DNA from: a virus
Strand: one strand, 5' to 3'
Length of the DNA: 54,108 nt
IMG/VR virus record: IMGVR_UViG_3300008267_006666
Coordinates: 1 to 54,108 of that record
Within the stretch, counting starts at the first letter, position 1, and every line of letters starts with the position of its first letter. Shown here one piece after another: positions 22,646 to 52,591 of the stretch. The position numbers and the translations under genes were made by a program. The notes beneath the pieces were generated by a model. The model searched no databases. It saw nothing but the letters and a program-made list of their open reading frames with translations, and was not told where the DNA came from.

Positions 22646-22647
22646 TA

Positions 22648-23709: not shown

Positions 23710-23712
23710 AGT

Positions 23713-25880: not shown

Positions 25881-25881
25881 A

Positions 25882-28425: not shown

Positions 28426-28449
28426 TTTATAACTTTAATACCTATATAA

Positions 28450-28992: not shown

Positions 28993-28998
28993 AATTAA

Positions 28999-29724: not shown

Positions 29725-29996
29725 AATAGTGAAAGTATTTTTTCTTCCCAGTAATCGTAATTTAATAAGTTAAGATTATAAACATTATTTTTAACTAGAT
29801 TTAATTTTTTATTAATTAAATCTTCATAATTTAAATCTTCAATTTTTTTGTTTTTATGTAACCATAGAGATAACCCACCTCTATGAAAACCAATTTCAAT
29901 AATTTTATCGAATTCGTGTAATATTTTTAAAAACGGTTCCTCTATGTTTGGGGTTTGACCTGCAACAATATTATCAACAATTAAGTAGTTTGACAT
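29721..29996 (-). CDS. Truncated methyltransferase-like small protein
   Basis: This 91-residue protein contains what looks like SAM-binding motif I of a class I methyltransferase (KIIEIGFHRGGLSLWLHKNK, about 31-50) preceded by the usual N-terminal helix. The rest of the fold (the acidic motif, the DGDHSY-type loop and C-terminal strands) is missing. It is probably a decayed remnant or a small subunit, and it still keeps an intact start and coupled stop with its neighbours. A functional methyltransferase is unlikely. Confidence 0.55.
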   Translation of the reverse strand: MSNYLIVDNIVAGQTPNIEEPFLKILHEFDKIIEIGFHRGGLSLWLHKNKKIEDLNYEDLINKKLNLVKNNVYNLNLLNYDYWEEKILSLL

Positions 29997-30000
29997 AATT

Positions 30001-32079: not shown

Positions 32080-32843
32080 AAAAAGTTATTAATAGATAAT
32101 TTATTTAAATTAAAGTTATCCCAAATACGATAATATAACGATTCTGTCAAATTTTCTAATTTTAAATCACTCCAATTATTAATTATTAATATAGGTAGAT
32201 TTTTATAGAAATCAATATTGGTTGATTTTGTGACAATAGGAATAGTCTTTAAATATAAAGATTCCCAAGTTTTATGACAATCAACCCCATTACCATTTGG
32301 TGAAAGAACAAAAAATGATTTAGATAAATCTTTTAAATAATTTTTAAAATCTGTTCTTTCGGACATTTTAAGATTATTTTCAATCATTGATTTCATACAA
32401 AAACTTCTTTCTATTATATTTGTTCTGATATCAAAATTACAATATATTAAGTTAGATTTTTCATTGTCTTCCAACATAATGTTATTTAAAACTTCAATGT
32501 TACCGTGTAACCATTTTTCATTCGCAATCCCGATTGGGATTGAGTTTAATTTAGGATGTGTAAAATCAACGTTTTGCGCAAACCACTTTATTAAGTGGTT
32601 ATCATTTAAATATTTTTCGTGATTTTTTGTAATATGATAATCACTATTATGTGTGACAATAATAAAATCTGAGTTAGGTTTAATTTTAGAAAAAAATAAA
32701 TCAATGAAATCAGTTTTTACAAAATATTTTGGAATTTCATTTAGTGAAGGATTTTTAATAGTCCCAAAACCAAATTCATCAAAATAATAATGACATCTTT
32801 TTTTAAAATTATTACCGGTTATAAATTCATTAATTTCGATCAT
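32076..32843 (-). CDS. Exostosin-like glycosyltransferase
   Basis: This 255-residue protein is one of several in the island with a C-terminal donor-site motif. Here it reads FFVLSPNGNGVDCHKTWESL followed by YLKTIPIV (about residues 180-207). The N-terminal half has FIIVTHNSDYHITKNHEKYL and LNSIPIGIANEKWLHG. It is similar in pattern to GT47/exostosin-like enzymes of bacteria and large viruses. It overlaps both neighbours by 4 nt. Confidence 0.65.
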   Translation of the reverse strand: MIEINEFITGNNFKKRCHYYFDEFGFGTIKNPSLNEIPKYFVKTDFIDLFFSKIKPNSDFIIVTHNSDYHITKNHEKYLNDNHLIKWFAQNVDFTHPKLNSIPIGIANEKWLHGNIEVLNNIMLEDNEKSNLIYCNFDIRTNIIERSFCMKSMIENNLKMSERTDFKNYLKDLSKSFFVLSPNGNGVDCHKTWESLYLKTIPIVTKSTNIDFYKNLPILIINNWSDLKLENLTESLYYRIWDNFNLNKLSINNFL

Positions 32844-33739
32844 GATACGAATTTTTTTAAATTTTTTGAGTGTATGTGTAAATTATTAATCCTTATTTCG
32901 GTATCTTTATAAATTAAAAAAGGTATTTTTCTATTTCTATTATCAATTTTAAATATGAATTTAAAATGATTAGGATTAAAAAATGAACTTTCATTTATAA
33001 ATCCCTCTGTTGATAGTTTATGTCCCACATTTCTTTGGTCTATCCCTCCTAAAAATTGACCTATTGCTGCGGCATCGAAAATGGAATTAAAATATTCAAA
33101 ATTATTAAAATATTGATTTGGTTTTTTTGATTTATTACCGGTCAATGTTATTAATTCTGAATCATAATTAGATGGTAATATAGGTAAATTAAACATTTTA
33201 TTCACGTAATTTTTATATTCGGATAATAATTCCATATCATTTCTGTTAGGATTATTGTTAATAAAACTATTTAGTTTGGTAATAGAGTCCAAATTTTTAA
33301 TGTATACGAATCCTGGAATGGCTCTAAAATCATTATCAAATGTAACCGCCAGTTCATAATTAGACTTAAAAAAATCTATATATTCGTCTAAATCAAAAAA
33401 AATTAAATTATCATTTTCTAAATGAAAAACATTTTCTAACCCATAAAAAAACATTAAATCCTCAATATATAAAAATCTTTCAGTTGAAAATTTCCAAAAC
33501 CCTCCCCTAAATTCTTTATCAAGATTATTGTTTTTATCAAAATTTATATGATTTTTTGTTTTAGGTAAGGATTCTGACGATACTATTATAACATCTTTAT
33601 CAATTATTTTTCCAACATTACATTCATTAATGATTAAAAAAATTTTATCATCATTAAATTTTTTTATTTGACTTATACAATCATTAATATAATCAAAAAA
33701 ATGGTTTCCAAGATGAATTAAAACTAAACTTTTGTCCAT
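32840..33739 (-). CDS. Putative GT-A glycosyltransferase (uncharacterised family)
   Basis: This 299-residue protein has a mid-region typical of an uncharacterised glycosyltransferase family: FWKFSTERFLYIEDLMFFYG, then NVFHLENDNLIFFDLDEYI (about 110-130), with Glu-x-Asp-x and Asp-x-Asp acidic motifs. FDAAAIGQFLGGIDQRN follows later. The C-terminus LHIHSKNLKKF is another recurrent mark. It shares its first base with the next upstream gene's end. The donor and acceptor are unknown. Confidence 0.6.
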   Translation of the reverse strand: MDKSLVLIHLGNHFFDYINDCISQIKKFNDDKIFLIINECNVGKIIDKDVIIVSSESLPKTKNHINFDKNNNLDKEFRGGFWKFSTERFLYIEDLMFFYGLENVFHLENDNLIFFDLDEYIDFFKSNYELAVTFDNDFRAIPGFVYIKNLDSITKLNSFINNNPNRNDMELLSEYKNYVNKMFNLPILPSNYDSELITLTGNKSKKPNQYFNNFEYFNSIFDAAAIGQFLGGIDQRNVGHKLSTEGFINESSFFNPNHFKFIFKIDNRNRKIPFLIYKDTEIRINNLHIHSKNLKKFVS

Positions 33740-34554
33740 TAATTAATATTTTTATTATGACTTTGATGAAAATAAGAAATTGATTTATTTTCCGAGTAAT
33801 GTTTAGGTTCCAATAAAGTTGAAAGTACCGCCCCCCATATTGGAAGATCCCCCCACCTATTACTATATATTCCGTGAGAATTATCAACACATTTTAAAAA
33901 AGAATTAATTAAATCATTTTTTAAAATATTTTTAATATCGACAATCATTAAATTAGTGTATGGGCATTTAATGTCCCCGAAAGATTTAAATGGTGTTATA
34001 TCATTTTCTTTTATGAATTTATTCCAAAGGGTTTCTAAACCCACAATAACATACCATTCATCTTGTTTTTGGAATTCAGGTGAAACAAAATAAATTTCAT
34101 TTTTCTTCATATCATCGATTAGTTTTAAATCAAAATTTTTTATAAAACAATCTTCATCAATTCTAATTATAAATTCATAATCTTTAAGATATTCTAAAAA
34201 ATCTATCGACCAAAAGTGACACATATGTTTATATCCCAATGGAAACATATTAGATTCTACGGTAGGTGGACACAAATCCATATTTATCAAATTTCTATTA
34301 TCATCAAAGGCGGTTTTAGGATTTGTTTTTTTTATATCAATAAAAATTAATTTTAAATTTGGCGTTCCATTGGAGATAAATTTCTGATGGTCTTTAGTAA
34401 TATTACCTTCGTGAAATATTATCATATCAAAATTTCTATTAGATTTTTTTAAAATCTGTTCCTCAATTTGTTTATTTCTAAAAATTAACGAACTATAATG
34501 AATTGGGTTATTATAACCTCTAGTTAAAACAACGATAGCGTCTTTATTTAACAT
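33739..34554 (-). CDS. GT15-like glycosyltransferase
   Basis: This 271-residue protein has the pattern of the KRE2/MNT1 type (GT15) of alpha-mannosyltransferases: GYKHMCHFWSIDFLEYLKDY leading to FIIRIDEDCFI (metal site at 131-135), then a NRWGDLPIWGAVLSTLL segment. GT15 is best known from fungi, and bacterial and viral relatives are less studied. The N-terminus IVVLTRGYNN has a normal start strand. It begins 4 bp after the next upstream gene (34558) ends. Confidence 0.65.
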   Translation of the reverse strand: MLNKDAIVVLTRGYNNPIHYSSLIFRNKQIEEQILKKSNRNFDMIIFHEGNITKDHQKFISNGTPNLKLIFIDIKKTNPKTAFDDNRNLINMDLCPPTVESNMFPLGYKHMCHFWSIDFLEYLKDYEFIIRIDEDCFIKNFDLKLIDDMKKNEIYFVSPEFQKQDEWYVIVGLETLWNKFIKENDITPFKSFGDIKCPYTNLMIVDIKNILKNDLINSFLKCVDNSHGIYSNRWGDLPIWGAVLSTLLEPKHYSENKSISYFHQSHNKNIN

Positions 34555-34557
34555 TTT

Positions 34558-35976
34558 TTAATTTGTTATTAGTTCTTTTATTTGATTATCAAAATCTACA
34601 ACGTGGTCTTGAGTTCCGTGAGAATTCATCTGATAATGTTTCATTAAGTTATTTAAGATTAAAGGATTTAATTGTTTTAAATAACAATAAAATGTTATTG
34701 ATCTTTCGTGGGCGTGACCTGCGGTTTTTGATTCTTTAATTTTATTGACAATTGGATTAAACCATTCCATATATGAATTAAAAAATGACGTATTCATTGT
34801 ACAATTGCTAGTCGATGACCACATCATATTTGGGTTCCTACTTAATATAATTCTTATAGTTTTTTCTAAATCTATTTTATAAATTTCTTTTATTGCCGAA
34901 AAGATTTCACTAACCCATACGGAATTATTTATAAAATGAAAATTATTACAAGGTATTGGAACGTATCCAATAATTTTAAACTCTTCATACAAATATTTAC
35001 TTATAACCTGCTCTAAACTCTTACTTAAAACAACATCATATTCAAATAAATTAACATAAGGTGTCTTTATTAGTTTATTTTTCCACAAAGCATACCAACC
35101 TGTATATGAATTTATATTTGGATATTCTTCCATATTATGTTCTAAATTTTTGGCAATGATAATTTTATTATTATCCTGAATTTTATCTGTAGGTCTACCA
35201 CCTAAAAAAACATATTTATAATTTTTAATATGGTTAAATTTTTTATTCTGCTCATACTCCAATATTATATCTTGGTCGTGACAGAATATAAAAGTGTCAC
35301 AAACCCCTTGATTTGTAATGTCGATTGGAAAATTATTTTTGTATTTACCAACAAATTGGGCTCTATTTTTTTCCCATATTTCATTTGTCATACCAATAGA
35401 TAAATGTGTTAATCTAACATCCGTTATTACACCTATTTTAACATCAGACAAATAATTTGGAATACAAAAAGATAAATCATAAAAATGAAACCCATTAAAC
35501 TCTTCATCAAATTTATGTTTAATCTTAGTTTTATCGAAAGAAATGAAAAGACCGTCAACCAAAACCACCTCTTCAATTTTATTACCTAAATCTTTTGAAT
35601 ATGTACTAGTCCATTTCTTACCTTCATTTTTATGGTTGACAATACCATACATTGTTTGAGGAACGTCCCACCATCTTCCTGTTTCAGGTAAAAATTTACT
35701 ACCAGCGACGCCAATAATCCCATATTCAGGATTTTTACTATAATGTTTTAATAATTTATCACCCCAATTCTTAGTTTCAAACTCCAAATCATCGTGAAGT
35801 AAAACAACTATATTGTGATTGGATTCTTCAATAATTTCATTGTAAACCTTTGATAATGATTTTTCACCATTATTAACTTTTTCAATAATTTGAACTTCTT
35901 TATACATACAAGTATCTTGTATATATTTTTTATATTCCGGGTTTGAGACCCTTGTACTATATCCTATTGTAATCAT
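34558..35976 (-). CDS. Two-domain glycosyltransferase (GT2 plus DUF4422-like)
   Basis: This is a 472-residue protein. Residues 1-220 form a GT-A domain (MITIGYSTRV, then HNIVVLLHDDLEFE as the acidic motif, GIIGVAGSKFLPETGRWWD, VDGLFISFDK, GFHFYDLSFC). The remaining 250 residues are a second module containing INSYTGWYALWKN, SNCTMNTSFFNSYMEWF and HAHERSITFYCYL, which resembles DUF4422-type sugar transferases. The second assignment is weak. It overlaps the dUTPase gene by 4 nt. Confidence 0.6.
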   Translation of the reverse strand: MITIGYSTRVSNPEYKKYIQDTCMYKEVQIIEKVNNGEKSLSKVYNEIIEESNHNIVVLLHDDLEFETKNWGDKLLKHYSKNPEYGIIGVAGSKFLPETGRWWDVPQTMYGIVNHKNEGKKWTSTYSKDLGNKIEEVVLVDGLFISFDKTKIKHKFDEEFNGFHFYDLSFCIPNYLSDVKIGVITDVRLTHLSIGMTNEIWEKNRAQFVGKYKNNFPIDITNQGVCDTFIFCHDQDIILEYEQNKKFNHIKNYKYVFLGGRPTDKIQDNNKIIIAKNLEHNMEEYPNINSYTGWYALWKNKLIKTPYVNLFEYDVVLSKSLEQVISKYLYEEFKIIGYVPIPCNNFHFINNSVWVSEIFSAIKEIYKIDLEKTIRIILSRNPNMMWSSTSNCTMNTSFFNSYMEWFNPIVNKIKESKTAGHAHERSITFYCYLKQLNPLILNNLMKHYQMNSHGTQDHVVDFDNQIKELITN

Positions 35977-36569
35977 ATTCCAGTCGAACCGAACCCGTTA
36001 CTACCTCGGTCTTTATCAAATTTATTAATACTTTCAGTTGGATTAACCCATTTACCATTAACTACGGGACATAAAACTGCTTGAGATATTTTCATACCTT
36101 TTTTAATTGTAAAAGGTGTTTTATTTGTGTTAAAAATAATAACCTTTACCTCACCTGTATAAGAACTATCAACGGTTCCTGGTGAATTTAAACACATTAA
36201 TCCTTGATTAATCGCTAACCCACTTTTAGACCTAACTTGAATCTCATACCCGTCTTTAATGTCAAATGATAATCCAGTAGGAATTAACGCTCTACCAAAT
36301 CCTTCAATAACAACCTCCTCAGTTGAATATAAATCAAAACCTGAATCTCCTTCATAATTGTATTTAGGACTTATAGCATCTTCATTTAACTTGTGATATG
36401 GTAATTCTATTCTTGGTGCATAATTAGACATATCTTTTTCCATTCCAAGTATATCTATACCATATTCATCTTCAATTAATTTATAATCAAAATTTTCATC
36501 AGTATCTTCACCTAAAACACTTCTTATTTTTTTTGTTTGTTCTCTAAGAGAATTTAAATCGTATTTCAT
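35973..36569 (-). CDS. dut: Trimeric dUTPase
   Basis: This 198-residue enzyme hydrolyses dUTP to dUMP and PPi, keeping uracil out of DNA. All five motifs are visible: DSGFDLYST (75-83), RSKSG (113-117), GTVDSSYTGEV with catalytic Asp134 and Tyr137 (131-141), KGMKISQAVLCPV (157-169), and DRGSNGFGSTG (187-197), the last covering the phosphate of bound substrate. An N-terminal extension of about 70 residues is unusual and of unknown use. The gene is coupled by 4-nt overlaps to the exonuclease upstream and the glycosyltransferase downstream. Confidence 0.95.
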   Translation of the reverse strand: MKYDLNSLREQTKKIRSVLGEDTDENFDYKLIEDEYGIDILGMEKDMSNYAPRIELPYHKLNEDAISPKYNYEGDSGFDLYSTEEVVIEGFGRALIPTGLSFDIKDGYEIQVRSKSGLAINQGLMCLNSPGTVDSSYTGEVKVIIFNTNKTPFTIKKGMKISQAVLCPVVNGKWVNPTESINKFDKDRGSNGFGSTGI

Positions 36570-37300
36570 TCTAATTCTTTTAATTTTTTAATAACTTTTA
36601 TTAATACATTAACATCTTCTTCACAATATTCAGATATTTCTTTTAATTTACCACCATTCCAATAAGAATCGTGAACATTATCCCCCTTAACTTCCCCTTC
36701 TTTTGATGAAGGTAGTTCAAGACAGGAACATAATAAATCTAAGGAACCTATTGAACTATATGAACCATATTGCCAAATTTCTTTTGTATCAATTGCCTTA
36801 ACTTCCCAAGGTTTTGTATCGTAATTTGGTAAAATTGATGGAGGCATAATACCATTAATAATCATTCTTTTCGCAATCATTGGAATATCGAAATTCTTTA
36901 GATTATGTCCACATAAAAAGAAATCTAATTTTGAACATCTATCTAATAAAACTTTACAAGATTTTAAAAGTTGTTTTTCATCATCACCTGAAAATGTTTG
37001 TCTTTTAATGTCTCCACTATCGGTTACAAATGCAAAACTAACACAAACTATTTTGGCGAATTCAGGAACTAAAGCCGATCTTTTAATGAAAACATTATTT
37101 TTATGGTTAAATATTTCCTGAAGATTAGAACCAACTTCAATATCATCTTCAGGAAATCTTTTTAAGAACCAATCAAAATATTTATCAAATTGTGAACATA
37201 AAGATATATCTTGTTCTAAAAAGGTGGTATAGTCTTTATAACAACCCACGGTCTCAATATCCATAAAAAGTATTTTTGTTAGAGGTACTTTTACAATCAT
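36566..37300 (-). CDS. DEDDy 3'-5' exonuclease
   Basis: This 244-residue protein is like the exonuclease domain of family B DNA polymerases (PolB-like type 2). Exo I is FMDIETVG (Asp14, Glu16). Exo II is GHNLKNFD (131-138, Asp138). Exo III is EYCEEDV with Tyr225 and Asp229. No polymerase domain follows, so this is a stand-alone enzyme, probably for DNA repair or recombination. It lies between dUTPase and a GT4-like gene, overlapping both by 4 nt. Confidence 0.85.
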   Translation of the reverse strand: MIVKVPLTKILFMDIETVGCYKDYTTFLEQDISLCSQFDKYFDWFLKRFPEDDIEVGSNLQEIFNHKNNVFIKRSALVPEFAKIVCVSFAFVTDSGDIKRQTFSGDDEKQLLKSCKVLLDRCSKLDFFLCGHNLKNFDIPMIAKRMIINGIMPPSILPNYDTKPWEVKAIDTKEIWQYGSYSSIGSLDLLCSCLELPSSKEGEVKGDNVHDSYWNGGKLKEISEYCEEDVNVLIKVIKKLKELE

Positions 37301-38514
37301 TTCACTAAATCTTTATAAATTTCACATCTTGTTTTTGTTACATTTTTAAGGTGATACGTGTCTTTAACCGTCTCATATAGGCGATTACCCATATCTTCAA
37401 TCATATTTGGATTGGTAACCAATTTTTTAATGTATTTAGCCCAATCACTATGATTTTTTTGCTCATCAACTAATAACGCGTTACCATCAACAAAATTACC
37501 ATCTTTTAAACAATGTTTTAAATCTATAGTATATGGACCTATGTTAGAAGCGATTAATGCTTTTTTATAGAAACCTGCCTCAATAACTTTTAATTGAGAT
37601 TTAACTCTATTAAAGATATGATTTTTAATTGGTGCTAATGAAATATCGAATTTAGAATAATTCTTAGCGTAAGTAGTTACAGGTAAAGTCCAAACTCTTC
37701 TATATGGTAAAGTATAATCGGATGAATATTCATCTTGTTTAAATTCCATTAAGAATTTTTTATAATTCTCATCAATAGTTTTATAATTATTTGTAAAAAT
37801 TTCTTCATATCTTGCCCAAACCGTTTCGTGAGGTAAAATATCTCTTCTTGTTTGTTTACCCGTTTCTTTATTTATTTCTGTAACAGTACCTCTTGTGTCG
37901 AATCCACATAAAACGTATTGAATATTTTTATTGAATTCTTCTCCGTTTTTTGAAATAAATCCGTCAAGTAATTTTAAATCGTGAAGATGCGAAGAACCTC
38001 CTAACCATCCTATTCTAATTTTATCACACTTTAAGGTTGGTTCTTTAAATTGTGCTTCGTCAGGGTTAATTGCGTTAGGTAATATATAAACATTTTTATT
38101 ATATTTGCGTATTTCATTTGCGAACAATGTTGTAGTTGTTGTAACACAACTTGCAACTTTTAAATTGGCAACAATTTTTTCGTGAATTTTATTTTGAACG
38201 ATTATACTATGTATTGGGTGTTCTATTGTGGGTAACCAATAATCATCTAAATCGACAATAACTATAATACCCATAGACTTTAATTTAGTAATTAACGCCG
38301 GTACTTTATCATAATCTTGTCCAATACTTCTATGAGCGTGAACTATCTGATATTTTTTCCAATAGTTATCGTTTTCTATTTGGGGATTGTAATCAATATC
38401 CACGTGAAATTCATCTGGATACATATTTTGCAACATTACGTGCGGGTCAACTGAGCGAAACTTACCAACGCCGGTAAAATCTGATGCGAGTACTAAAACA
38501 TTAATTTTTGACAT
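37297..38514 (-). CDS. GT4-like glycosyltransferase (GT-B)
   Basis: This 405-residue protein has GT-B architecture. The N-terminal domain has NVLVLASDFTGVGKFRSVDP and a nearby QIVHAHRSIGQ strand. The C-terminal domain has RIGWLGGSSHLHDLKLL and the donor-binding segment RVKSQLKVIEAGFYKKALIASN (about 317-338), then a C-terminal helix. It is the first glycosyltransferase of the island in its reading direction and its start overlaps the end of the endonuclease remnant by 14 nt. Confidence 0.75.
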   Translation of the reverse strand: MSKINVLVLASDFTGVGKFRSVDPHVMLQNMYPDEFHVDIDYNPQIENDNYWKKYQIVHAHRSIGQDYDKVPALITKLKSMGIIVIVDLDDYWLPTIEHPIHSIIVQNKIHEKIVANLKVASCVTTTTTLFANEIRKYNKNVYILPNAINPDEAQFKEPTLKCDKIRIGWLGGSSHLHDLKLLDGFISKNGEEFNKNIQYVLCGFDTRGTVTEINKETGKQTRRDILPHETVWARYEEIFTNNYKTIDENYKKFLMEFKQDEYSSDYTLPYRRVWTLPVTTYAKNYSKFDISLAPIKNHIFNRVKSQLKVIEAGFYKKALIASNIGPYTIDLKHCLKDGNFVDGNALLVDEQKNHSDWAKYIKKLVTNPNMIEDMGNRLYETVKDTYHLKNVTKTRCEIYKDLVK

Positions 38515-41306: not shown

Positions 41307-44150
41307 ATGTCAAATCAAAATATTAATCATTGGGCTAACTCGAAATGGTTTCCTAAATTGTCTTTGGGGTCTTACGATATGTCATTAACTACCGATGAAA
41401 CCGAGTTTAATCAGGAGGTAGTTTTTTCTCCGTATCTAATATCTCAAACCTACGGTAAAAAATTACCTGTGTATTTTGATTTGAATGATTCCGGAACAAC
41501 ACAAAATATTGTTTTAAATTATAAAGAATATAATGAAAACAATGTAATAGTCTCCCAAAATAATTATAATCCTAAGAATGAAAATTTAAATTGTTTTAGT
41601 TCGTCAACATCTTGTGATATTGGTTTAACAGGTACGGATAATGGACTTGTAACTAAAATGACAGGAGAAACAATTACATTTACCAATGGATTATTTGAAG
41701 ATAGTTTAAAATTCGATAGATTACATTTTGACAGAAGATTAAAATTATTTCAAGTTACAGGATATACTCAGTCTCCAAATATTAGATTTTCAGGTATACA
41801 AAAGACTACTTTATATGAAGTTGTGAGTAAAGAAGACCCTTCTTTTGGAAAATATCACGAATTATATGGAGGATTCTATCAAGGATTTTATAAATTATTT
41901 GGGTATGATTATGAGATTTTACCCGAAAGATTTAATAAGGGTTGGTCTGTTGAAATGTTGTTAAAACCTAGATTATTTAATGAGTATTTTCCTGATTTAG
42001 GGGAAACAACTTTAAATGAAATATATCCTAATAATAAAAATATTTTCTTTTACTTTGGTGCAAGATCCGAAAATAAGTATTATCATCATGCCGATGGGAC
42101 ACCAAATTGTTTTACAGGATATACTAGGATAACATCTGAATTAACAGGTATAACAACTTGTTCTTGTTGTAATAATACAATTACAAATAGTAGGTGTATT
42201 TTTATATATCCTCCACGTTCAGTTAATGGTGTTCACGACCCTCACGTAAATTATGGTTGTGATAAATGTAATGGTAATAAAGAAATAAGTATAACTTGTG
42301 GGTGTGATTGTAATAAGAATCCTTGTGAAACTTGTGGATGGGAGTGTCAAACTCACAAATGTGAAACTATTATAAGTGCAACAACTACAACCACAACAAC
42401 TACAATATCAGATGGTTGTGTGGTAACCACAACCTGTACCCCCGATTGTCAAACTTGTTATGAGTGTGATGATTGTGATACGTGTGAAGAAACTTTCGAT
42501 TCAATAGAGGATACTTGTGAAAAAGACCCGTTATATGACGGAATGTCAAATGCTTTCGCATTAAAACTTTGCGGAGACCCAAAAAACCCTCAAATAGGTG
42601 TTAGATTTTTAAGGTTTACAGGTGATTGTGTAACAACAGGAACTTGTGAAACAGGTAAGACATATAACACCGGTTATACTATCACAGAATATTGTACACC
42701 ACCAATTTATCCTAAATGTGAAAAAGAAAACCCGTCTTGGTTAGATTTAGAACATTGGTTTCAAGTTAACGTTGTTTGGGAAAGATATACATTTTTAGAT
42801 GAATGTGATTTAAAATATCGAGGAGGATTAGCGGACATAACTAAAAAAATATTTTTAGAGTCATTAGCAAATAACTCAGTTTCGTTAATCACTACACCAT
42901 ATACAAATGGTAAAAAAACTGCATTACAGATGGAGTTGGTTAACTTAAATGAAAAATGGTTATTAGATGGTAAATTTAGAAAAGGTAGATTAAAAATTTA
43001 TGTTAACGGTAAATTACATCATACTATTGAAGATTTTGAGGAAATAATACCAAGAGCGTTAAATACGGACAAAGAAAGACAAATTGGAGTTCCGTTTAAC
43101 ATTTCTTGGGGAGGAGGAACTCAAGGACTTAGAGATAATTTAGTTTTTAGTTCATCAACTCAATTAGAAGGTCCGTACGTTCAAGACCCAGAATTGTTTC
43201 CATCAAATGTATTGTCAGGTACAACTTTTAGCGGATTAAATACTAACATACAAATAGAACAAAATTTTGCAGGAACTTTTGAGGGAGGAATCTCCCAATT
43301 TAGAATGTATGTTGAACCTTTAAAAGCGTCGGAAGTAAAGCATAATTTCAAACTTTTAAAAGATAAGTTTATTATGTTTGACCCCGATTGTCCTAATTGT
43401 GATTTATCGGTATGTGAAGTTAATGACTTTGAATACGACATTTATAGTTCCACCACAACAACAACTACGTTAAATATAGAAACACTACAAAATTTAGGGT
43501 TTGGTTTGGGTAGGGAATTGATAATAGATAAAAGAGATTTGAATTATTTAATTGAAAATAAGATTAATTTACCAAAAACTTTATTAACTGAAAAATATTG
43601 GGACGCTGACGGATGGTGGGGTAATCAAGGAAATACACCTCATTGTGTTGGATATTCTTGGGCTCATTGGATTGATGATGGTCCCATAAAACATTCAGGA
43701 CTTAAACCAAATACTGATCCAGTTTTAATTTATCGAAACGCTCAAAAATTAGATGAATGGCCGGGAGAAAATTATAATGGAACTTCAGTTAGAGGAGGTG
43801 CAAAATATTTACAAAATATACGTAAAATAAAATCATATTTATGGACTTTTAATATTAATACTTTAATACAAACTCTTTTAACTCAAGGACCTGTTGTTGT
43901 TGGTACAAATTGGTATATGGGAATGTTTTATCCTAACAACCAAGGAGTAATAAAAATAAGTGGTAGAATTGCGGGAGGTCACGCATATGTTTTAAATGGT
44001 GTTAACACAAAAACACAATTATTTAGACTAAAAAATAGTTGGGGTAGAAATTGGGGGTTATCTGGACACGCGTTTATTAGTTTTTCAGATATGCAGAGAT
44101 TAATAAAAGAAAAGGGTGAAATTTGTTTGGCGGTTGAAAATAATTTTTAA
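41307..44150 (+). CDS. Tail-associated protein with Cys-rich, poly-Thr and papain-like peptidase domains
   Basis: This is a 947-residue protein. N-terminal beta structural parts (1-270, with receptor-like segments) lead to a very Cys-rich domain (about 275-410, with [43 protein letters not shown]) split by a run of eight Thr. A lectin/LamG-like part follows (about 470-670), then a second poly-Thr (about 716-721). Residues about 755-947 are a papain-fold cysteine peptidase with Gln774, Cys780 (CVGYSW), His892 (GGHAYV) and Asn910 (NSWGRNWG). The enzyme may cleave host surface proteins or process the fibre itself. It begins the plus-strand fibre block. Confidence 0.75.
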
Positions 44151-44152
44151 TT

Positions 44153-45169
44153 ATGAGTAATTTTATTGAAATAAAAAGTGTTAATTATGATGGTGAAGAG
44201 GCGAATATTCTTTTCACACCATACCAAGGGGATAATGTGATAAATTTAGGTTTTGTAACACTACCTTTCATTTTTGAGCCTGTCCCACCAATAAATATTT
44301 ATGGAACTTACACAATATTAGTTAAAGATAGTAATTGTCCTTACATATTAAATGTTCCATCACCATCACCCACACCAACTCCTAGTTTGACTCCTAGACC
44401 AACAAGAACACCAACCCCTACACCAACCATAACCCCAACTCCAAGTCCTACTTGCCCTACACCAACAAGAACTCCATACCCCACACTAACACCGACACCA
44501 ACAAGAACTCCATACCCTACAAGAACACCAATACCTACTCCAACACCTACTTCAACACCTACTTGTACCCCAACACCAACTCCAACACCTACTCCATTAC
44601 CGGCTGTTAGATACGCATATCTATTTATTGAGCCAATATCAAAATCGACAATGATAGGTCAATGGATGTATGACGGAGGTTCGACATTCTACGGATTTTC
44701 AAATGCGACTCAACCAACTCAAGACCAAAACCAATTTAACTCAGATATGAATTTGTATGTTAATTTTACGGGTTGGACTAATGGTGAATTTCCTACTATT
44801 AAGAGTCAAGTGGTGCCACAATCAACTGGAGGTATTGATTCTTTTGGTAATTTAAAAGTTGCGTATAACTTTATGACCACAGAAGTAATGGAAAATACCA
44901 TAGGGGGAGACGCTTGGTATACCTGGATAATACCTACCACATTAACTAACAATGAAATACAAATAACGATAGATTTAAATACAAATAGTAGCCCTAACTT
45001 AATGACCGCAGTGGGTACGGAAGGAACAATAAACTCTTACACGTTTAACTATAGCGGTACAACAATACCTCAAACAACATATAAAGTTTATACAACTTTT
45101 CCTAATACTATATTCCAAATATTGGATTCTCAAAATATTTATTTTAAGGGGAATTCGGTAGGTCCTTAA
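44153..45169 (+). CDS. Fibre protein with long Pro-Thr mucin-like linker
   Basis: This is a 338-residue protein. A small beta domain (1-68) is joined by an 82-residue Pro-Thr linker (69-150, mostly PT repeats with Arg, Ser and two Cys) to a C-terminal beta domain (about 151-338) with [11 protein letters not shown] and [18 protein letters not shown]. The linker is extended and flexible and offers dozens of Thr residues for O-glycosylation. No signal peptide is present, so the protein is a virion part and not exported. The gene starts 2 bp after the peptidase gene ends. Confidence 0.7.
44357..44602 (+). repeat. Pro-Thr codon repeat region
   Basis: About 82 codons of mostly PT dipeptides (acc/act/aca mixed with cca/cct/ccc) form a low-complexity tract. 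Codons vary, so the tract is kept at protein level and is not a simple DNA repeat. Confidence 0.95.
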
Positions 45170-45179
45170 TCAGTAAAAT

Positions 45180-46154
45180 ATGAATTTTAATTATAAAAAT
45201 CCTGTAACACCATTAACCGCTTTAGGTAATATAAGTACCAAAAGAGATGACGTATTTGGTACTAATTTTAGTATTCTGTCCACGGGTGGATATATGGAAG
45301 TTTATAGTCTTGACGATTTAAATTATACAATACCTTCCGGTACTACCGGATTAATAAAATTTTCAGGGAATACAATACCTATACAATTTAATAAAGGAAC
45401 AGGTTCGGTATTTTCTCCGGATGTTTTAACCTTAAATTCTGATAATTTTTCTTCAGGTAGAAGGAGAATCGGTATGTTGGTATATGTTAAAGAGGTTGAC
45501 CAAGTTTATCAATACCAAGTCCCTAATTTTGAACTTTACTGGTCTCAAATCACAGGATTAACAGGGACAACCGTATTCTCAAATTTCGGAACAACTATTA
45601 AAAATAATACAATTCTTAGTGATTTATTTATTGAAGAATGGAAGTCCTCAAAAATTGAAGGTATTAGTGGTAATACAAGGTCGGATTCAAATTGGATTAA
45701 ATATTATGGAACGACTTTAGCGGTAACTGGAGGTTCTTTTAATAGTCTTACAAATATATTAACACTAAATAATATAACAGGGGGTAGCGTTTTTATTTCT
45801 GGTTTTACAAGTTTTACAGGGGGATCGGGTAGTTGTTTATCTGAAATAGTAGTGGATAAGATTAGTTCTTGTATAAGTGCAATAACCGTGAATAATCAAT
45901 TAATAGTTTTAAGTGGAATAACTTTAACTGGAAATTTAGTTCCTTCATCAGATGCTCAATATGATATTGGCACAACAATTAGGAGATTTAGACAAATAAA
46001 CACCGTAAGTGGAACATCGACCATTTGGTCGGCAACGACAAAAATTTATACACCCGAACTTGATTTAGGTTTAGATAGTTTTGGTAATAGTAGAATTATA
46101 AATGCAAATAACTCAATAATACAAGATGATGTTTTATCGGGAGGTAATTTTTAA
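45180..46154 (+). CDS. Tail fibre / virion structural protein
   Basis: This 324-residue beta-rich protein begins with a domain (about 1-130) that recurs in the gene at 52613: a VYSLDDLN start, then RRRIGMLVYVKEVDQVYQY. The middle is Gly/Ser/Thr-rich and repetitive. The C-terminal part has AQYDIGTTIRRFRQINTVSG, a motif widely seen in phage tail fibres. No enzyme motif is visible. It lies 10 bp after the Pro-Thr protein gene. Confidence 0.65.
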   Translation: MNFNYKNPVTPLTALGNISTKRDDVFGTNFSILSTGGYMEVYSLDDLNYTIPSGTTGLIKFSGNTIPIQFNKGTGSVFSPDVLTLNSDNFSSGRRRIGMLVYVKEVDQVYQYQVPNFELYWSQITGLTGTTVFSNFGTTIKNNTILSDLFIEEWKSSKIEGISGNTRSDSNWIKYYGTTLAVTGGSFNSLTNILTLNNITGGSVFISGFTSFTGGSGSCLSEIVVDKISSCISAITVNNQLIVLSGITLTGNLVPSSDAQYDIGTTIRRFRQINTVSGTSTIWSATTKIYTPELDLGLDSFGNSRIINANNSIIQDDVLSGGNF

Positions 46155-46162
46155 AAGTAAAG

Positions 46163-46171
46163 ATATTTATA
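46163..46171 (+). promoter_or_regulatory. Putative late promoter box ATATTTATA
   Basis: It lies 27 nt before the ATG at 46199 and is followed by an A-rich leader. Confidence 0.5.
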
Positions 46172-46198
46172 TATAAATTAATTAAAAAAAAATAAAAA

Positions 46199-47506
46199 AT
46201 GGCAAATAGAAGTACGAGGTTTCAGTTAAAACATAACTCAACAATCACAGGTTCAACATTACCTTCATCAGGTATTTTGGTTGCTGAACCATTGGTTAAT
46301 CTTTATGATGGTATAATGTATTTTTCTGGAACTCCTGGTTCTACGGGTTATACCACCGGAAATACAAACGTTGGTTACTTTGAGGTTGGTTCTCATTTAA
46401 CTAATCTAAGATTGGATGGATTGATAACATCCTATAGTGGTGTTAGTGGTTCCGGATTGGAAAACAAAATTTTATCGGGTACGTCACAAGGTTTTGTTTT
46501 GGTCGATTCCTCAAATATAAATGGAATTAGTGCGTTTACTTATACCGCGTCGGCAAATACTTTCACAATTTACGATAGTAACGGAACACCTTATTCGGCA
46601 ACCGTTACTTCTGTTTCTGGACTAACAATTAATGGGGATTTTACAATTACAGGTAATACGACTTTACAATCAGTAACCGCGTCAACATTAAACGTAACCG
46701 GTAATACAATATTACAATCCACAACAGCTTCAACATTAAATGTAACAGGTAATACCACTTTACAATCTTTTACTGGTGGGTCAGGAACAATTAATGGTGA
46801 TTTAAATGTTACTGGAAATACAATATTACAATCAACGACTGCGTCAACATTAAACGTAACTGGTAATACAATTCTGGAGTCTACAACCGCGTCAACATTA
46901 AATGTGACTGGTAATACGATTTTACAATCAACTACCGCCTCAACATTAAACGTTACAGGTAATACAAGTTTACAATCAACAACCGCGTCTACCTTAAATG
47001 TGACCGGTAATACCAACTTAAATTCTTTAACGGCATCAACAACAAATATTAATGGTAATTTAACCGTAACAGGTTCAACGACCACTAATTCAATTAGCGC
47101 AGCAACCTACAATACCAATTTAGGGGCTAATCTTGTTGTTTATACAAATGGTTTAGGAACATTAAGTACAGAAACGGGTTTTAGTTACGACTCAACTGGT
47201 GATACTTTATCGGTTAAAAACGCGATTATCGGTAGTGGTGGTAGTATATTTAGTGCTGGAACAGGTGATTTAGTAGTTCACGGAAATTTAACCGTGTTTG
47301 GTGAATCCATATCAGCGTTTACATCAAGCTTATATATTGAAGATAATAACATCGTTTTAAATTTTAATCCTACAGGTTCTACGGCGGATTCTTCAGTTAA
47401 TTCAGGTTTTGAAATTAGAGATGGGTCAGGAATTTCAGGTAGTTCAGTTAATTTAGATATTGTTAGGTTACAATATTTACTAATAGAGGTTGGATTACTC
47501 AACTGA
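46199..47506 (+). CDS. Repeat-containing tail fibre protein, frame interrupted near the end
   Basis: This is a 435-residue protein. The N-terminus MANRSTRFQLKHNS resembles that of the gene at 47726 and is probably a shared attachment domain. Residues about 150-290 contain tandem 16-residue beta-helix-like repeats (TTASTLNVTGNTILQS). Near residue 423 the annotated frame leaves the expected coding pattern and stops at 47506. From about 47467 the -1 frame continues with VTIFTNRGWITQLNDIVIRS to a stop at 47616. So the natural protein probably had about 50 more residues. A true frameshift mutation, sequence error or programmed shift cannot be told apart here. An A-rich leader precedes the start. 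Confidence 0.7.
   Translation: MANRSTRFQLKHNSTITGSTLPSSGILVAEPLVNLYDGIMYFSGTPGSTGYTTGNTNVGYFEVGSHLTNLRLDGLITSYSGVSGSGLENKILSGTSQGFVLVDSSNINGISAFTYTASANTFTIYDSNGTPYSATVTSVSGLTINGDFTITGNTTLQSVTASTLNVTGNTILQSTTASTLNVTGNTTLQSFTGGSGTINGDLNVTGNTILQSTTASTLNVTGNTILESTTASTLNVTGNTILQSTTASTLNVTGNTSLQSTTASTLNVTGNTNLNSLTASTTNINGNLTVTGSTTTNSISAATYNTNLGANLVVYTNGLGTLSTETGFSYDSTGDTLSVKNAIIGSGGSIFSAGTGDLVVHGNLTVFGESISAFTSSLYIEDNNIVLNFNPTGSTADSSVNSGFEIRDGSGISGSSVNLDIVRLQYLLIEVGLLN
46650..47060 (+). repeat. 48-bp tandem repeats in fibre gene
   Basis: About seven to eight copies of a 48-nt (16-codon) unit with sequence variation between copies; the protein unit is like TTASTLNVTGNTILQS. Such arrays can expand and contract by recombination. 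Confidence 0.85.
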
Positions 47507-47616
47507 ATGATATCGTAATTAGAAGTACGGACATTACTGATAATGGTTCCGTGGGTTCTATTACTGGTGTCAGAGTTTTGGCCGAATTTGATGTCCTCGA
47601 TGGAGGTTCATATTAA
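47467..47616 (+). pseudogene. Out-of-frame 3' end of fibre gene
   Basis: These 50 codons are in the -1 frame relative to the gene at 46199. They read through VTIFTNRGWITQLNDIVIRS and end in FDVLDGGSY. The composition and TNRGWITQLND motif look like a normal fibre C-terminus, so it most likely belongs to the same protein after a shift near 47466. Confidence 0.6.
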
Positions 47617-47640
47617 AAGTAATGTCAAAAAATAAATTAA

Positions 47641-47668
47641 AAAGGAAGGTTTTACCTTCCTTTTTTTA
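47641..47668 (+). terminator. Intrinsic terminator
   Basis: A 9-bp perfect stem (AAAGGAAGG with CCTTCCTTT) encloses a 5-nt loop and runs into a T tract. It follows the out-of-frame end at 47616, which supports that as the original gene end. Confidence 0.9.
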
Positions 47669-47676
47669 TATCTATA

Positions 47677-47685
47677 ATATTTATA
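47677..47685 (+). promoter_or_regulatory. Putative late promoter box ATATTTATA
   Basis: It lies 40 nt before the ATG at 47726, directly after the terminator at 47641-47668. Confidence 0.5.
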
Positions 47686-47725
47686 AAATGAGGTTATATA
47701 ATCTTATAAAATATAGGTCATATAT

Positions 47726-48934
47726 ATGGCAAATCGTAGTTCAACGTTTTTACTAAAACGTTCAAATGTTATTGGGAAAATACCCGAATTAACGGGTCTT
47801 ACAATTGGTGAATTAGCTCTTAATACTGCCGACGCTAAACTATATACAATATTTACATCGGGTACAACAGGTTCAACCGAGGTTAGACAGATTGGTTGGG
47901 ATAGAATTAGTAGAACAGGTGATACGGTTTATGGTGACTTTAATTTTTATGGTAATATACAAATTAGTGGGTTAACCCAACCAAGTGGTTATACACTATC
48001 AATAACCGGTGATACAAATTTAATCGGTTATTCTTTTCATAGTGGTAATACGGAACAAATTGGTAATTACCACATAACAGGTAATACGAGTCAAGAAGGT
48101 ACATATACTCATAGCGGAAATACTTTCATTACAGGTAATACCACTCAAATTGGTAATTTTAATTTAACAGGTGATACTAATTTAAGTGGTAATACAGATC
48201 AGTTTGGTAGTATTAATTTAACGGGCAGCACTTCAGGTCAATGCGCCTTATACGTTGATGGGGATGTTTGTATAGATGGTAATTTAAATATTACAGGTAA
48301 TACAAATATGGTTGGCACTCTTAGTTTACAAAACTCAAATTCATTAGGTAATACAGGTATTAATATATTTGACACCACTTTAATTCCATCGGGAATTACC
48401 GTAGTGCACCAATTCCAAGGGGAGGGAGGGATATTCGCCCATTTAGGTGATTTGGCGTCAGGAGAACCAAACTCAAAAGGTTATATCTATATGGAAAATA
48501 ATGGGGTTGCAAATATTATGCCTACAGGAACAGCGTATCAAAAAGTTTCGGGTACCACATCAACAATAGTAGAATATTTAAATTTTTTTACAACCGGGTC
48601 ATCAAGTAATGAGTTATTATATACCTTTAGTAGTTCAACAGGGTCAAGTTCGACATTTTTAAAATATTCAGTATCTTATACGGTACAGAGTTCTGGTGGT
48701 TCTAAAAGATTATCATTCGCGATAAGAAAAACAACAAGTGGTGGAACTCAAACCATTGTTCCTGCGGCGATGACACTTTATACGTCAGGTGCTAATTTAG
48801 AAAGTGCCGGTTCGTTATCGGGTATTGTCTCTGCTCAACTAGGTGATAGGTTTGAAGTTGTGGTTTCTAATGGTAGTGGAGCACCTACATTTAACGCACT
48901 AATAAGTGATTTAACTTTTTCATTATATACTTAA
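47726..48934 (+). CDS. Tail fibre protein
   Basis: This is a 402-residue protein. The N-terminus (MANRSSTFLLKRSN, then LTIGELALNTADAKLYT) is a common tail-fibre start, and it is similar to the start of the gene at 46199. The centre (about 75-210) is a repetitive beta structure with GNTxxxGxxxxTGNT-like units such as TGDTNLIG and SGNTFITGNT. The C-terminal domain (about 215-402) is a beta sandwich with one conserved GDRFEVVVSNGSG segment. It is the probable receptor-binding or decorating fibre. It is followed by a small gene 5 bp later. Confidence 0.7.
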   Translation: MANRSSTFLLKRSNVIGKIPELTGLTIGELALNTADAKLYTIFTSGTTGSTEVRQIGWDRISRTGDTVYGDFNFYGNIQISGLTQPSGYTLSITGDTNLIGYSFHSGNTEQIGNYHITGNTSQEGTYTHSGNTFITGNTTQIGNFNLTGDTNLSGNTDQFGSINLTGSTSGQCALYVDGDVCIDGNLNITGNTNMVGTLSLQNSNSLGNTGINIFDTTLIPSGITVVHQFQGEGGIFAHLGDLASGEPNSKGYIYMENNGVANIMPTGTAYQKVSGTTSTIVEYLNFFTTGSSSNELLYTFSSSTGSSSTFLKYSVSYTVQSSGGSKRLSFAIRKTTSGGTQTIVPAAMTLYTSGANLESAGSLSGIVSAQLGDRFEVVVSNGSGAPTFNALISDLTFSLYT

Positions 48935-49742: not shown

Positions 49743-49750
49743 AATAATTG

Positions 49751-50047
49751 ATGTCTCAAGTTATCGAAATAACAAATGTAAATGGGTCAGGAACATATGA
49801 CGTTTATTTATGTGATATAACTTTAACCTATTGTTTTTTAATTTCGGGAGCAACATCAATTCCCCCAACCGTATCTTTTGAATTACCTTCATCTTTACCA
49901 AACCCAAATTCACCTCCCGCAACAATAACTTTTGATGGTGCAACCTCAGTAATTGTTAAAATAGTAGATACATCAACAGGATGTGAAAAATTTATGGTTT
50001 ATGATTGTGGTGAACCTCCTACCACAACAACTACTACAACAATATAG
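49751..50047 (+). CDS. Small beta protein ending in a poly-Thr tail
   Basis: I chose the ATG at 49751, not the preceding TTG. The 98-residue protein starts MSQVIEITNVNGSGTYDVYL, a single beta domain with Cys pairs, and ends in [13 protein letters not shown]. The end is like the Thr tract of the gene at 51383 (PTTTTTTIPP), where a further domain follows. Either this is a complete small virion protein with an exposed Thr tail, or the reading frame has been cut short by insertion of the glycosyltransferase gene. The Thr tail is a candidate O-glycosylation target. Confidence 0.6.
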   Translation: MSQVIEITNVNGSGTYDVYLCDITLTYCFLISGATSIPPTVSFELPSSLPNPNSPPATITFDGATSVIVKIVDTSTGCEKFMVYDCGEPPTTTTTTTI

Positions 50048-50064
50048 TTTCTTTTTTTAAAAAA

Positions 50065-50091
50065 ATATTATCATTCTAAAAATGATAATAT
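50065..50091 (+). promoter_or_regulatory. Hairpin covering the start of the GT60 gene
   Basis: An 11-bp stem (ATATTATCATT with AATGATAATAT) has a 5-nt loop. The first two bases of the ATG at 50090 lie in its right arm. It could mask the start codon or act as a processing or weak attenuation site. Confidence 0.4.
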
Positions 50092-51343
50092 GAGTAAAAT
50101 TTTTATACAAATTGCAAGTTTTTCTGACCCCGAATTAATACCAACAATTAAAGATTGTATTAATAATGCGAAGTATCCTGAAAATTTAGTTTTTAGTATT
50201 TGTAGACAATATCACCCTGATTACACGTTTGATGATTTATCCGAATATGAAAAAGATGAACGATTTAAGGTTATTAATGTTTTATATACTGAAACGTTAG
50301 GAGCTTGTTGGGCAAGACACCAACTACAAAAACAATATGATGGTGAAGAATATACTTTACAGATTGATAGTCATATGAGATTTGTAAAAGATTGGGATGA
50401 AATCTCAATTAATATGATTAAAGATTTACAATTAAAGGGTTATAAAAAACCATTACTTACTGGATATGTATCTTCTTATGACCCTGATAATGACCCCAAT
50501 GGTAGAATTAACGTTCCTTGGGGAATGGTTTTTGATAGATTTATTCCTGAAGGTGCGGTATTTTTCTTGCCCGAATCAATACCAAATCATACAGAATTAA
50601 AAGAACCGATACCATCAAGATTTTATTCTGCACATTTTTGTTTTACTTTAGGTTCATTTGTTAAAGAGGTCCCTCACGATGAAAATTATTATTTCCACGG
50701 AGAAGAAATATCAATAGCGGCAAGATCTTATACTCACGGATACGATTTGTTTCATCCTCATATTATTATATGTTGGCACGAATATACAAGAAAAAATAGA
50801 AAAAAGGTTTGGGATTATGATAGTAATTGGTATATTAAAAACGATAATTCACATTTAAGAAATAGAAAATTATTCTCTATGGACGGTGAAGTTTATAACC
50901 CTGAAGAATTTGGTGTCTATGGATTTGGTAAAGAAAGAACTTTAAAAGATTATGAAATATATTCAGGAATATTATTTTCAAAAAGATCCGTCCAACAATA
51001 TACTTTAGATAAAAAATACCCTCCAAACCCATACGAATTTAAATCTGAAGAAGAATGGATTAATAGTTTTTCATATATATTCAAACATTGTATTAATATT
51101 TACCATAATCAAGTTACCGAATCTGATTATGATTTTTGGGCGGTAACTTTTAATGATGAGAATGGGAAAGAAATTTATAGAAGAGATGCGGATAAAAATG
51201 AGATTAATCGATTATTATTAGATAAAGATAAGTATTGTAAAATATGGAGAGAATTTAACACCACCACAAAACCAAAATATTGGGTTGTATGGACTCATTC
51301 AATATCTAAAGGTTGGTGTGAAAGAATTACAGGTAATTTATAA
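50090..51343 (+). CDS. GT60-type polypeptide GlcNAc-transferase
   Basis: This 417-residue protein matches the GlcNAc-transferase family of CAZy GT60. Visible signatures are IFIQIASFSDPEL (4-16), LGACWARHQLQ (70-80), the metal/donor motif QIDSHMRF with Asp93 and His95 (91-98), then HGEEISIAARSYTHGYD (203-219) and HEYTRKNR (230-237). Known eukaryotic members add alpha-GlcNAc to hydroxyproline of Dictyostelium Skp1 or to Thr of Pro/Thr-rich mucins in Dictyostelium and Trypanosoma cruzi. It sits between two fibre genes with Thr and Pro-Thr tracts, so these are the likely acceptors. Its ATG lies inside a hairpin. Confidence 0.85.
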   Translation: MSKIFIQIASFSDPELIPTIKDCINNAKYPENLVFSICRQYHPDYTFDDLSEYEKDERFKVINVLYTETLGACWARHQLQKQYDGEEYTLQIDSHMRFVKDWDEISINMIKDLQLKGYKKPLLTGYVSSYDPDNDPNGRINVPWGMVFDRFIPEGAVFFLPESIPNHTELKEPIPSRFYSAHFCFTLGSFVKEVPHDENYYFHGEEISIAARSYTHGYDLFHPHIIICWHEYTRKNRKKVWDYDSNWYIKNDNSHLRNRKLFSMDGEVYNPEEFGVYGFGKERTLKDYEIYSGILFSKRSVQQYTLDKKYPPNPYEFKSEEEWINSFSYIFKHCINIYHNQVTESDYDFWAVTFNDENGKEIYRRDADKNEINRLLLDKDKYCKIWREFNTTTKPKYWVVWTHSISKGWCERITGNL

Positions 51344-51360
51344 AAAAACAATTTTTTAAA

Positions 51361-51369
51361 GTATTTATG
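51361..51369 (+). promoter_or_regulatory. Putative late promoter box (variant GTATTTATG)
   Basis: It keeps the TATTTAT core and lies 13 nt before the ATG at 51383. Confidence 0.35.
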
Positions 51370-51382
51370 ATAAAAAACTTTA

Positions 51383-52591
51383 ATGAATTTTTTTATCAAG
51401 AAAAACGCCACTTTACCTTTATTAAAACTTGAGGTAGTTAAGGACGGTAGAAATGAGTTCAATAACTTTATGAATTTAATTGAACAATCGGCCATTTTCT
51501 TTTCAATGGAGGATGTTGAAACGGGAATCTCAAAAATAAGTTCAAGGCCAGCTGGGTTTGTTGAGAAGGTTTTAATTAACCCTGACGCCGAACCTGAATA
51601 CTATATATATTATCAATTCACATCTAAAGATACTAATAAGATTGGGAGATATGAGGGTCAATTTATGTTAAGAAGTGATGATGGAGTTTTAATATTACCA
51701 ATCAGAGAAAAACTTTTTATAAATGTTCAAGAATCGTTTATTGCGGATGATTTACCTTATGAGACTTGTTATACCTCAGAATTTCCTTGTTGTATAAGTC
51801 CTTCACCAACACCAACAATTTTACCGACCACAACTACAACTACAATTCCTCCAACAGGTGTTACGGTTAGTATTTTAACCGAAGTTATGTCTGGATCAGT
51901 AATATTTAATTTTAGTATTATTTTATCAAAATTATTAGATACAGACTATACAATAACTTTAACAAAACAATTTAACGTTGTTAGTGGGGATCCAATAAAT
52001 GTTTCTGCAAGTGTTACAATACCCCTTAATTCAATTTCAGGTTCAACATCTGTAATAATTGATGATGATATAGATAGGATTGCTAGTGGTACTACCACAA
52101 CTTCTATTGATCATAACCCAAATAATGGTATTAGTTATAGCGAGGTGGAGGACATTAAATATGTTAATTTCACTCCTAAACCGACCCCAACGCCAACACC
52201 TACGATAACCCCAACACCAACTCCCACCCCAACTCCAACACCTACTCCTACACCTCCTCAAGAAACTTTTGTTAAGTTTGGTAAATCAACAAAACAAAGA
52301 ATTTATGATACTGATATAACAAATTTCACTAAGAAAAATGTTAATGATGTACAAAATCAATATTTAGAATATCCAAGTCAACAAGGATATTGTTATTTAT
52401 TGGTTCCAAGTTATATGAACCAACCAAGTGTGTTTAGAGATAGTGCGGATGGATGTGATGGTTTTGTTATTCCTTTTTTAAAGGTTGAAGATATTGAATT
52501 TATTGACTCAAATGGAAATTTGAGTATATATTATGTGTATAGGTCATTTGTCTCGACATCATCTAAGGTTGATGTTTGGGTATGTGACTAA
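51383..52591 (+). CDS. Fibre protein with poly-Thr and Pro-Thr linkers
   Basis: This 402-residue protein has three parts. The N-terminal domain (1-135) is a beta structure starting MNFFIKKNATLPLLKLEV. A first Thr tract (PTTTTTTIPP near 150) is followed by a beta domain (about 160-260) that resembles a Calx-beta or Ig-like fold, and then a Pro-Thr linker (about 264-292). The C-terminal domain (about 293-402) has FVKFGKSTKQRIYDTD and CDGFVIPFLK. Two mucin-like segments between globular domains make it a prime candidate acceptor for the GT60 enzyme encoded directly upstream. Confidence 0.7.
   Translation: MNFFIKKNATLPLLKLEVVKDGRNEFNNFMNLIEQSAIFFSMEDVETGISKISSRPAGFVEKVLINPDAEPEYYIYYQFTSKDTNKIGRYEGQFMLRSDDGVLILPIREKLFINVQESFIADDLPYETCYTSEFPCCISPSPTPTILPTTTTTTIPPTGVTVSILTEVMSGSVIFNFSIILSKLLDTDYTITLTKQFNVVSGDPINVSASVTIPLNSISGSTSVIIDDDIDRIASGTTTTSIDHNPNNGISYSEVEDIKYVNFTPKPTPTPTPTITPTPTPTPTPTPTPTPPQETFVKFGKSTKQRIYDTDITNFTKKNVNDVQNQYLEYPSQQGYCYLLVPSYMNQPSVFRDSADGCDGFVIPFLKVEDIEFIDSNGNLSIYYVYRSFVSTSSKVDVWVCD
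52172..52258 (+). repeat. Pro-Thr codon repeat region
   Basis: About 29 codons of mostly PT dipeptides with mixed synonymous codons, similar to the tract at 44357-44602. Confidence 0.95.

Follow-up and report, generated by a model that had tools for sequence, protein, structure and literature searches.

Can a bacteriophage carry out mucin-type O-glycosylation of its own proteins? The question is raised by a stretch of viral DNA of 54,108 nucleotides (IMG/VR record IMGVR_UViG_3300008267_006666, positions 1 to 54,108; hereafter the window), in which a preliminary description had noticed a GT60 glycosyltransferase gene flanked by genes with Thr and Pro-Thr tracts, and had proposed that the phage attaches GlcNAc to its own fibres. 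In the present analysis the observation was confirmed and the interpretation is partly supported. We consider it fairly probable that the phage, a large aquatic one, encodes a soluble mucin-type O-HexNAc system that acts on its own Thr and Pro-Thr proteins, and phages that carry GT60 are likely to coat parts of their particles with sugar.

The GT60 enzyme and its predicted fold

The gene had been assigned to GT60 by its motifs, all of which are present, and by profile search membership of its product in the family is beyond doubt. PF11397, "Glycosyltransferase (GlcNAc)", matched the catalytic domain at E = 2.6e-64 and 218.3 bits against a curated cut-off of 21, and phrog_24687, "glycosyltransferase", matched at 1e-162. 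When 66 phage and bacterial homologues with 29-71% identity to the window protein were aligned, Q91, D93, H95, E206 and H230 were among the invariant residues. No N-terminal membrane anchor or segment was found in the window GT60, in which catalytic strand 1 is the start of the protein. In this it departs from the anchored enzymes of secretory compartments that are expected in mucin-type glycosylation; the missing anchor is to be expected for a phage, and cytosolic GT60 members have none either. The conserved C-terminal domain of ~115 residues was found in the GT60 of 160/160 phage loci and in none of the remaining proteins encoded by the loci retrieved, and it sets the phage enzymes apart from those of protists. 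It is apparently missing in shorter viral GT60-like proteins. In the literature searched, nothing on GT60 in bacteriophage was found.

The AlphaFold2 model built on the 66-homologue alignment reached a pLDDT of 95.6 and a pTM of 0.89, and an earlier model from a shallow alignment (pLDDT 67.5) was set aside. Searched against the PDB with Foldseek, the model gave 37 top matches that were all ppGalNAc-transferases, the best being 2ffu, human ppGalNAcT-2 with UDP and the mucin peptide EA2 (E 1.2e-11); a PDB search by sequence found no relative. The predicted GT-A fold, akin to that of peptide HexNAc-transferases and with a DxH-type metal motif, had a TM-score of only ~0.5 over the full length and of 0.64 (normalised by target) for the isolated catalytic domain. 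The model supports a resemblance of the window GT60 to mucin-initiating transferases. The animal ppGalNAc-transferases (GT27) are its nearest solved folds, share the DxH-type motif and initiate mucin O-glycans, but their sequence identity to the window enzyme is 9-16%, their donor is UDP-GalNAc, and they carry a ricin-type lectin domain, which was not recognised in the window GT60.

Protist enzymes of the same Pfam/CAZy family initiate the glycosylation of Thr/Pro-rich mucin segments (PMC3769586, PMC8724618). The 14-residue peptide on which the T. cruzi enzyme was assayed (PMC3769586) is close to the ten-residue end of the 99-aa window protein and to LPTTTTTTIPP of the 402-aa protein (Table 1). 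The protist enzymes work within the Golgi, where their substrates are secreted or surface mucins; the phage enzyme is soluble, is borne by a bacterial virus and has a predicted activity only.

Thr and Pro-Thr tract proteins of the window

All the flanking tract genes named in the preliminary description exist (Table 1), including the gene before GT60 that ends in a Thr tract, the gene after it with PTTTTTTIPP and a Pro-Thr run, and the gene at 44153 with a Pro-Thr-rich run. The 402-aa protein consists of a conserved N-terminal domain, PTTTTTTIPP, a Pro-Thr run and a C-terminal domain, and its N-terminal domain is homologous to a 125-aa protein that is kept near GT60 in 74 of 80 close relatives. 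The weak phrog_15511 match of the 338-aa protein, whose tract lies between N- and C-terminal domains, is common to mucin-like proteins of relatives. For the 947-aa protein the two reported poly-Thr runs were found, with the correction that its C-terminal end matches a papain-like peptidase (PF00112 E 2e-5; phrog_16701 E 3e-56). This C1 peptidase domain (residues 734-944) lies behind poly-Thr and Cys-rich segments, in what is probably a virion protein. The word "fibre" used for these genes was an assumption, established for no named tract gene; among the Ser/Thr-rich repeat genes nearby, the one at 47726 has a weak match to the distal subunit of a long tail fibre (phrog_1699 E 0.0014).

Table 1. 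Features of the window that bear on the proposed glycosylation system (T6, T7 and T8, runs of six, seven and eight Thr).
Position	Strand	Product	Internal positions	Evidence
21842..38514	-	Glycosyltransferase and sugar-modification island		Profile matches
41307..44150	+	947-aa protein with T8, T6 and papain-like C1 peptidase domain; candidate acceptor	T8 about 42381-42404; T6 about 43452-43469
44153..45169	+	338-aa protein; candidate acceptor	80-residue Pro-Thr-rich tract about 44369-44608	Tract; weak phrog_15511 match
45180..48934	+	Three repeat proteins rich in Ser and Thr; genes of the same module, probably of virion fibre type
49748..50047	+	99-aa protein ending in T7; candidate acceptor	ATG start 49751; T7 about 50021-50041	Family beside GT60 in 16 loci
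50090..51343	+	GT60/PF11397 glycosyltransferase, 417 aa	QIDSH (DxH) near 50360-50374; HGEE near 50696-50707; C-terminal domain (about residues 300-417) 50990-51340	PF11397 profile, PHROG, alignment, AF2 model
51383..52591	+	402-aa protein; candidate acceptor	T6 about 51827-51844; ~30-codon Pro-Thr run about 52163-52273	Reading frame, tract count, homology

The window held 5 runs of at least five Thr, about thirtyfold the 0.16 obtained by shuffling each protein (never above 2 in 1000 shuffles). Separate Pro-Thr runs were unexceptional in number for proteins of such composition (3 against 0.65 expected, maximum 4), and it is the length and composition of these runs, rather than their number, that stand out. 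Each tract is written with two to four kinds of Thr codon (ACA, ACT, ACC, ACG). Such mixed codons rule out a simple microsatellite or trinucleotide-repeat origin of the poly-Thr, and suggest that the tracts are kept at the protein level and not through slippage of one triplet.

Association of GT60 with tract genes

The preliminary description had made its proposal depend on whether GT60 also stands beside Thr or Pro-Thr tract genes in other phages, and this association was found, both in 160 phage loci (80 close and 80 more distant, from two scans) and in genome controls. A tract gene lay within 4 kb of GT60 in 72/80 close and 40/80 distant phage loci, and in 13/70 bacterial loci; in the close relatives it was nearly always directly upstream. 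Tract codons were densest within 4-6 kb on the upstream side of GT60 (10-25 per kb, against 0-1.4 downstream); in the close relatives there were 25 per kb in the nearest 2 kb upstream and none at 6-10 kb downstream. With random non-tract genes from the same loci as the expectation, GT60 touched a tract gene more often than by chance, in 18/58 loci after dereplication at 85% GT60 identity (7.6 expected, p < 0.001) and in 8/35 at the stricter 75% (4.1 expected, p = 0.03). Within 6 kb of GT60 lie 276 tract proteins, which fall, with tracts masked, into 35 unrelated families, so that one inherited gene pair does not account for the pairing.

Many of these proteins read as true mucin-like stalks, such as one locus (L006) with about 300 residues of TPTNTVTPTN repeats and another (L606) in which a single protein repeats P-TTTTTT and Pro-Thr tracts. 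Dedicated Ser/Thr/Pro-rich tract proteins are thus encoded together with the enzyme, for which they would be the acceptors. Several of the tract-free loci were contigs cut near GT60, and one cluster (L007/L008) is a real local exception; a search for Thr-rich, Pro-poor neighbours in loci without Pro-Thr tracts found none in most. At L465 and the Burkholderiales loci L469, L470, L476 and L485, GT60 was seen near a VgrG-like baseplate protein with a long Pro-Thr run, and at L465 an RHS-repeat protein lies between the two.

The association was also found at the scale of whole genomes, when DNA was searched for a strict (Pro-Thr)3-Pro pattern, whose chance expectation is below 0.003 per 300 kb. 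Nineteen large isolate genomes were selected for a related DNA polymerase or capsid protein. Of these, 3/3 with GT60 contained the pattern (13 matches in XacN1, 7 in RAS14 and 7 in CM1) and 0/16 without GT60 did (p = 0.001, or 0.007 dereplicated, since RAS14 and CM1 are near-identical). IMG/VR records of at least 150 kb with GT60 had it in 16/19, and two of the three exceptions (L603, L604) do have tract genes when judged at the protein level. In a sister capsid protein (MCP) clade from the same collection, GT60 was found in 0/22 and the pattern in 2/22 (G189, G192). Contigs chosen by the tract pattern alone had GT60 in 9/50, against 0/49 for the reversed pattern, a comparison confounded by the higher GC of the reversed-pattern contigs, for which reason the sister-clade and isolate controls were added; many of the 41/50 tract-selected contigs without GT60 were fragments or high in GC. 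The MCP clade of the window itself gave little contrast, as nearly all its long records carry GT60 (7/7 of these with tracts) and those without are mostly short fragments. All these p-values are descriptive, as the phages are related to each other and isolates and metagenome contigs were sampled differently. The association recurs across many related phages and is not one-to-one.

Partner genes of GT60

An HtrL/YibB-like gene was present within the fetched flanks of 144/160 phage loci, and GT25-like and unassigned 290-aa proteins stood near GT60 in many. This company, GT25 being an LPS-type name, would fit a cassette that modifies a surface glycan of the host (LPS or capsule) during infection, with the tract genes as mere neighbours, as would the 57/70 bacterial GT60 loci without tract neighbours. 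We regard this as unlikely, as it leaves the whole-genome association and the above-chance adjacency unaccounted for, the nearest folds of GT60 are peptide-modifying enzymes, and these large phages, if lytic, would gain little from serotype conversion.

No recognisable homologue of the HtrL/YibB-like, GT25-like or other GT60 partner genes was found in the 54-kb window. The window does hold an island with two GT2, GT15-like, GT31-like and GT4-like glycosyltransferases, a DegT aminotransferase, a hexapeptide acyltransferase and a TylF-like methyltransferase, and the preliminary description had suggested that such an island could extend the glycans. As its gene set differs from the GT60 partners of relatives, this role is only possible. 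Within the island, at 25882-28992 (minus strand), the DegT aminotransferase, hexapeptide acyltransferase and TylF-like methyltransferase lie together with a BKACE enzyme, possibly for synthesis of a modified amino sugar. Elsewhere in the window, at 4826-6514, a homing/HNH endonuclease-like gene lies directly behind the major head protein gene.

The chromosome of the bacterium Jiulongibacter sediminis encodes a Pro-Thr protein, hydrophobic over an N-terminal stretch, with a GT60 gene on either side; a carbamoyltransferase and an FkbM-YibB fusion come next, making this an independent recurrence of the same gene set. GT60, a NodU-like carbamoyltransferase and an HtrL/YibB-like protein stand together in XacN1 and in J. 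sediminis (L083:13409-18946 and L464:9241-13151).

Comparison with phage XacN1

The cultured Xanthomonas phage XacN1, like the window, has GT60 (ORF334, 45% identity to the window enzyme) and Pro-Thr proteins, and adds a NodU-like carbamoyltransferase near GT60. Its ORF232-237 are six tandem paralogues that share a conserved N-terminal region, carry a Pro-Thr stalk and differ in their C-terminal domains (L454, XacN1 124048-133104), and they resemble a diversified set of display proteins; ORF180, 325, 350 and 384 are further tract proteins, and a papain-like protease (ORF382) lies two genes from ORF384. In the published report, proteomic analysis found at least two glycoproteins in XacN1 virions, and the authors suggested that two annotated glycosyltransferases, GT60 among them, make these; the main text there draws no connection among GT60, mucin tracts and glycoproteins (PMC5852040). 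Virion glycosylation by phages is already known: glycosyltransferases of mycobacteriophages decorate virion proteins (Freeman et al. 2023, cited in PMC12619734), where, as cited there, the sugars sit at the C-terminal ends of capsid and tail tube proteins, with no mention of GT60 or a mucin-like tract. The earlier statement that no phage system of this kind had been described is thus largely right for the combination of GT60 and mucin tracts, and too broad for virion glycosylation.

It was also considered that the tracts could be unglycosylated flexible linkers, co-inherited with GT60 in a large-phage module, with the enzyme acting on some other protein. Synteny is common to close relatives, Pro-Thr tracts occur in phages without GT60, and Pro-Thr linkers need not be glycosylated. 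As a full account we find this a little less likely than the modification of host glycans, as the tract proteins beside GT60 belong to many unrelated families, GT60 and tract genes are paired again at other loci and on a Bacteroidota chromosome, the longest tract noted above exceeds the needs of a linker, and glycoproteins were reported in XacN1.

Phage glycosyltransferases often act on DNA, and neighbours of GT60 weakly match PHROG families of HMC-glucosyltransferases; yet glycosylation of hypermodified bases by the cassette is improbable, since GT60 is nearest to peptide HexNAc-transferases and tracks tract proteins, and in a non-systematic look no base-hydroxymethylation gene was noticed beside it. 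Least probable is hydroxyproline of the Pro-rich tracts as the acceptor, which would follow the Skp1 GlcNAc-transferase Gnt1, a soluble cytosolic GT60 member like the phage enzyme that needs and modifies one hydroxyproline of Skp1, as the poly-Thr tracts have no internal Pro and the prolyl-hydroxylase-type family PF13640 does not track GT60, being absent from XacN1, RAS14 and most records with GT60 and present in cyanophages without it, so that no matching hydroxylase pattern exists in these phages. Glycosylation of Thr in the tracts explains the whole-genome association more simply than any of these rivals.

Proposed system and its significance

If Thr glycosylation of the tracts is the correct reading, the soluble GT60 would work in the host cytoplasm with a host UDP-sugar, most likely UDP-GlcNAc, and would place a single alpha-linked HexNAc on many Thr of the mucin-like segments of the phage's own proteins, the targets being Pro-flanked poly-Thr runs as well as Pro-Thr repeats. 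The proteins so modified would be part of the virion or associated with it, with an N-terminal domain, a mucin-like stalk and a variable C-terminal domain, and the sugar may render the stalks stiff, extended and protease-resistant. Neighbouring HtrL/YibB-like and GT25-like glycosyltransferases might extend or modify the first sugar in most relatives, joined in XacN1 by the NodU-like carbamoyltransferase. What stands on direct observation is the enzyme family, its active-site motifs and fold resemblance, and the recurrent pairing with tract proteins; these back the first proposal in part, while acceptor, donor and linkage are what we infer, as are the benefit to the phage and the place in the virion.

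A wider proposal, for which we see the balance as about even, is that large aquatic phages hold, as a widespread class, a complete eukaryote-like mucin pathway, in which phage mucins receive their first, dense O-HexNAc from GT60, the linked YibB-like, GT25-like and carbamoyltransferase enzymes build the glycans further, and a glycosylated mucin coat or stalks result. The phage mucins of such a pathway are proposed to be paralogue sets with a conserved base, a mucin stalk and a variable head, as in XacN1 ORF232-237.

Should this hold, phages would possess mucin-type O-glycosylation, regarded as a eukaryotic trait, together with dedicated acceptors, and this would bear on the origin of GT60 and could provide soluble tools for producing mucins by bacterial expression in E. 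coli. It would also account for the XacN1 virion glycoproteins, so far reported but unexplained, and for the many Pro-Thr proteins of aquatic phages that lack annotation.
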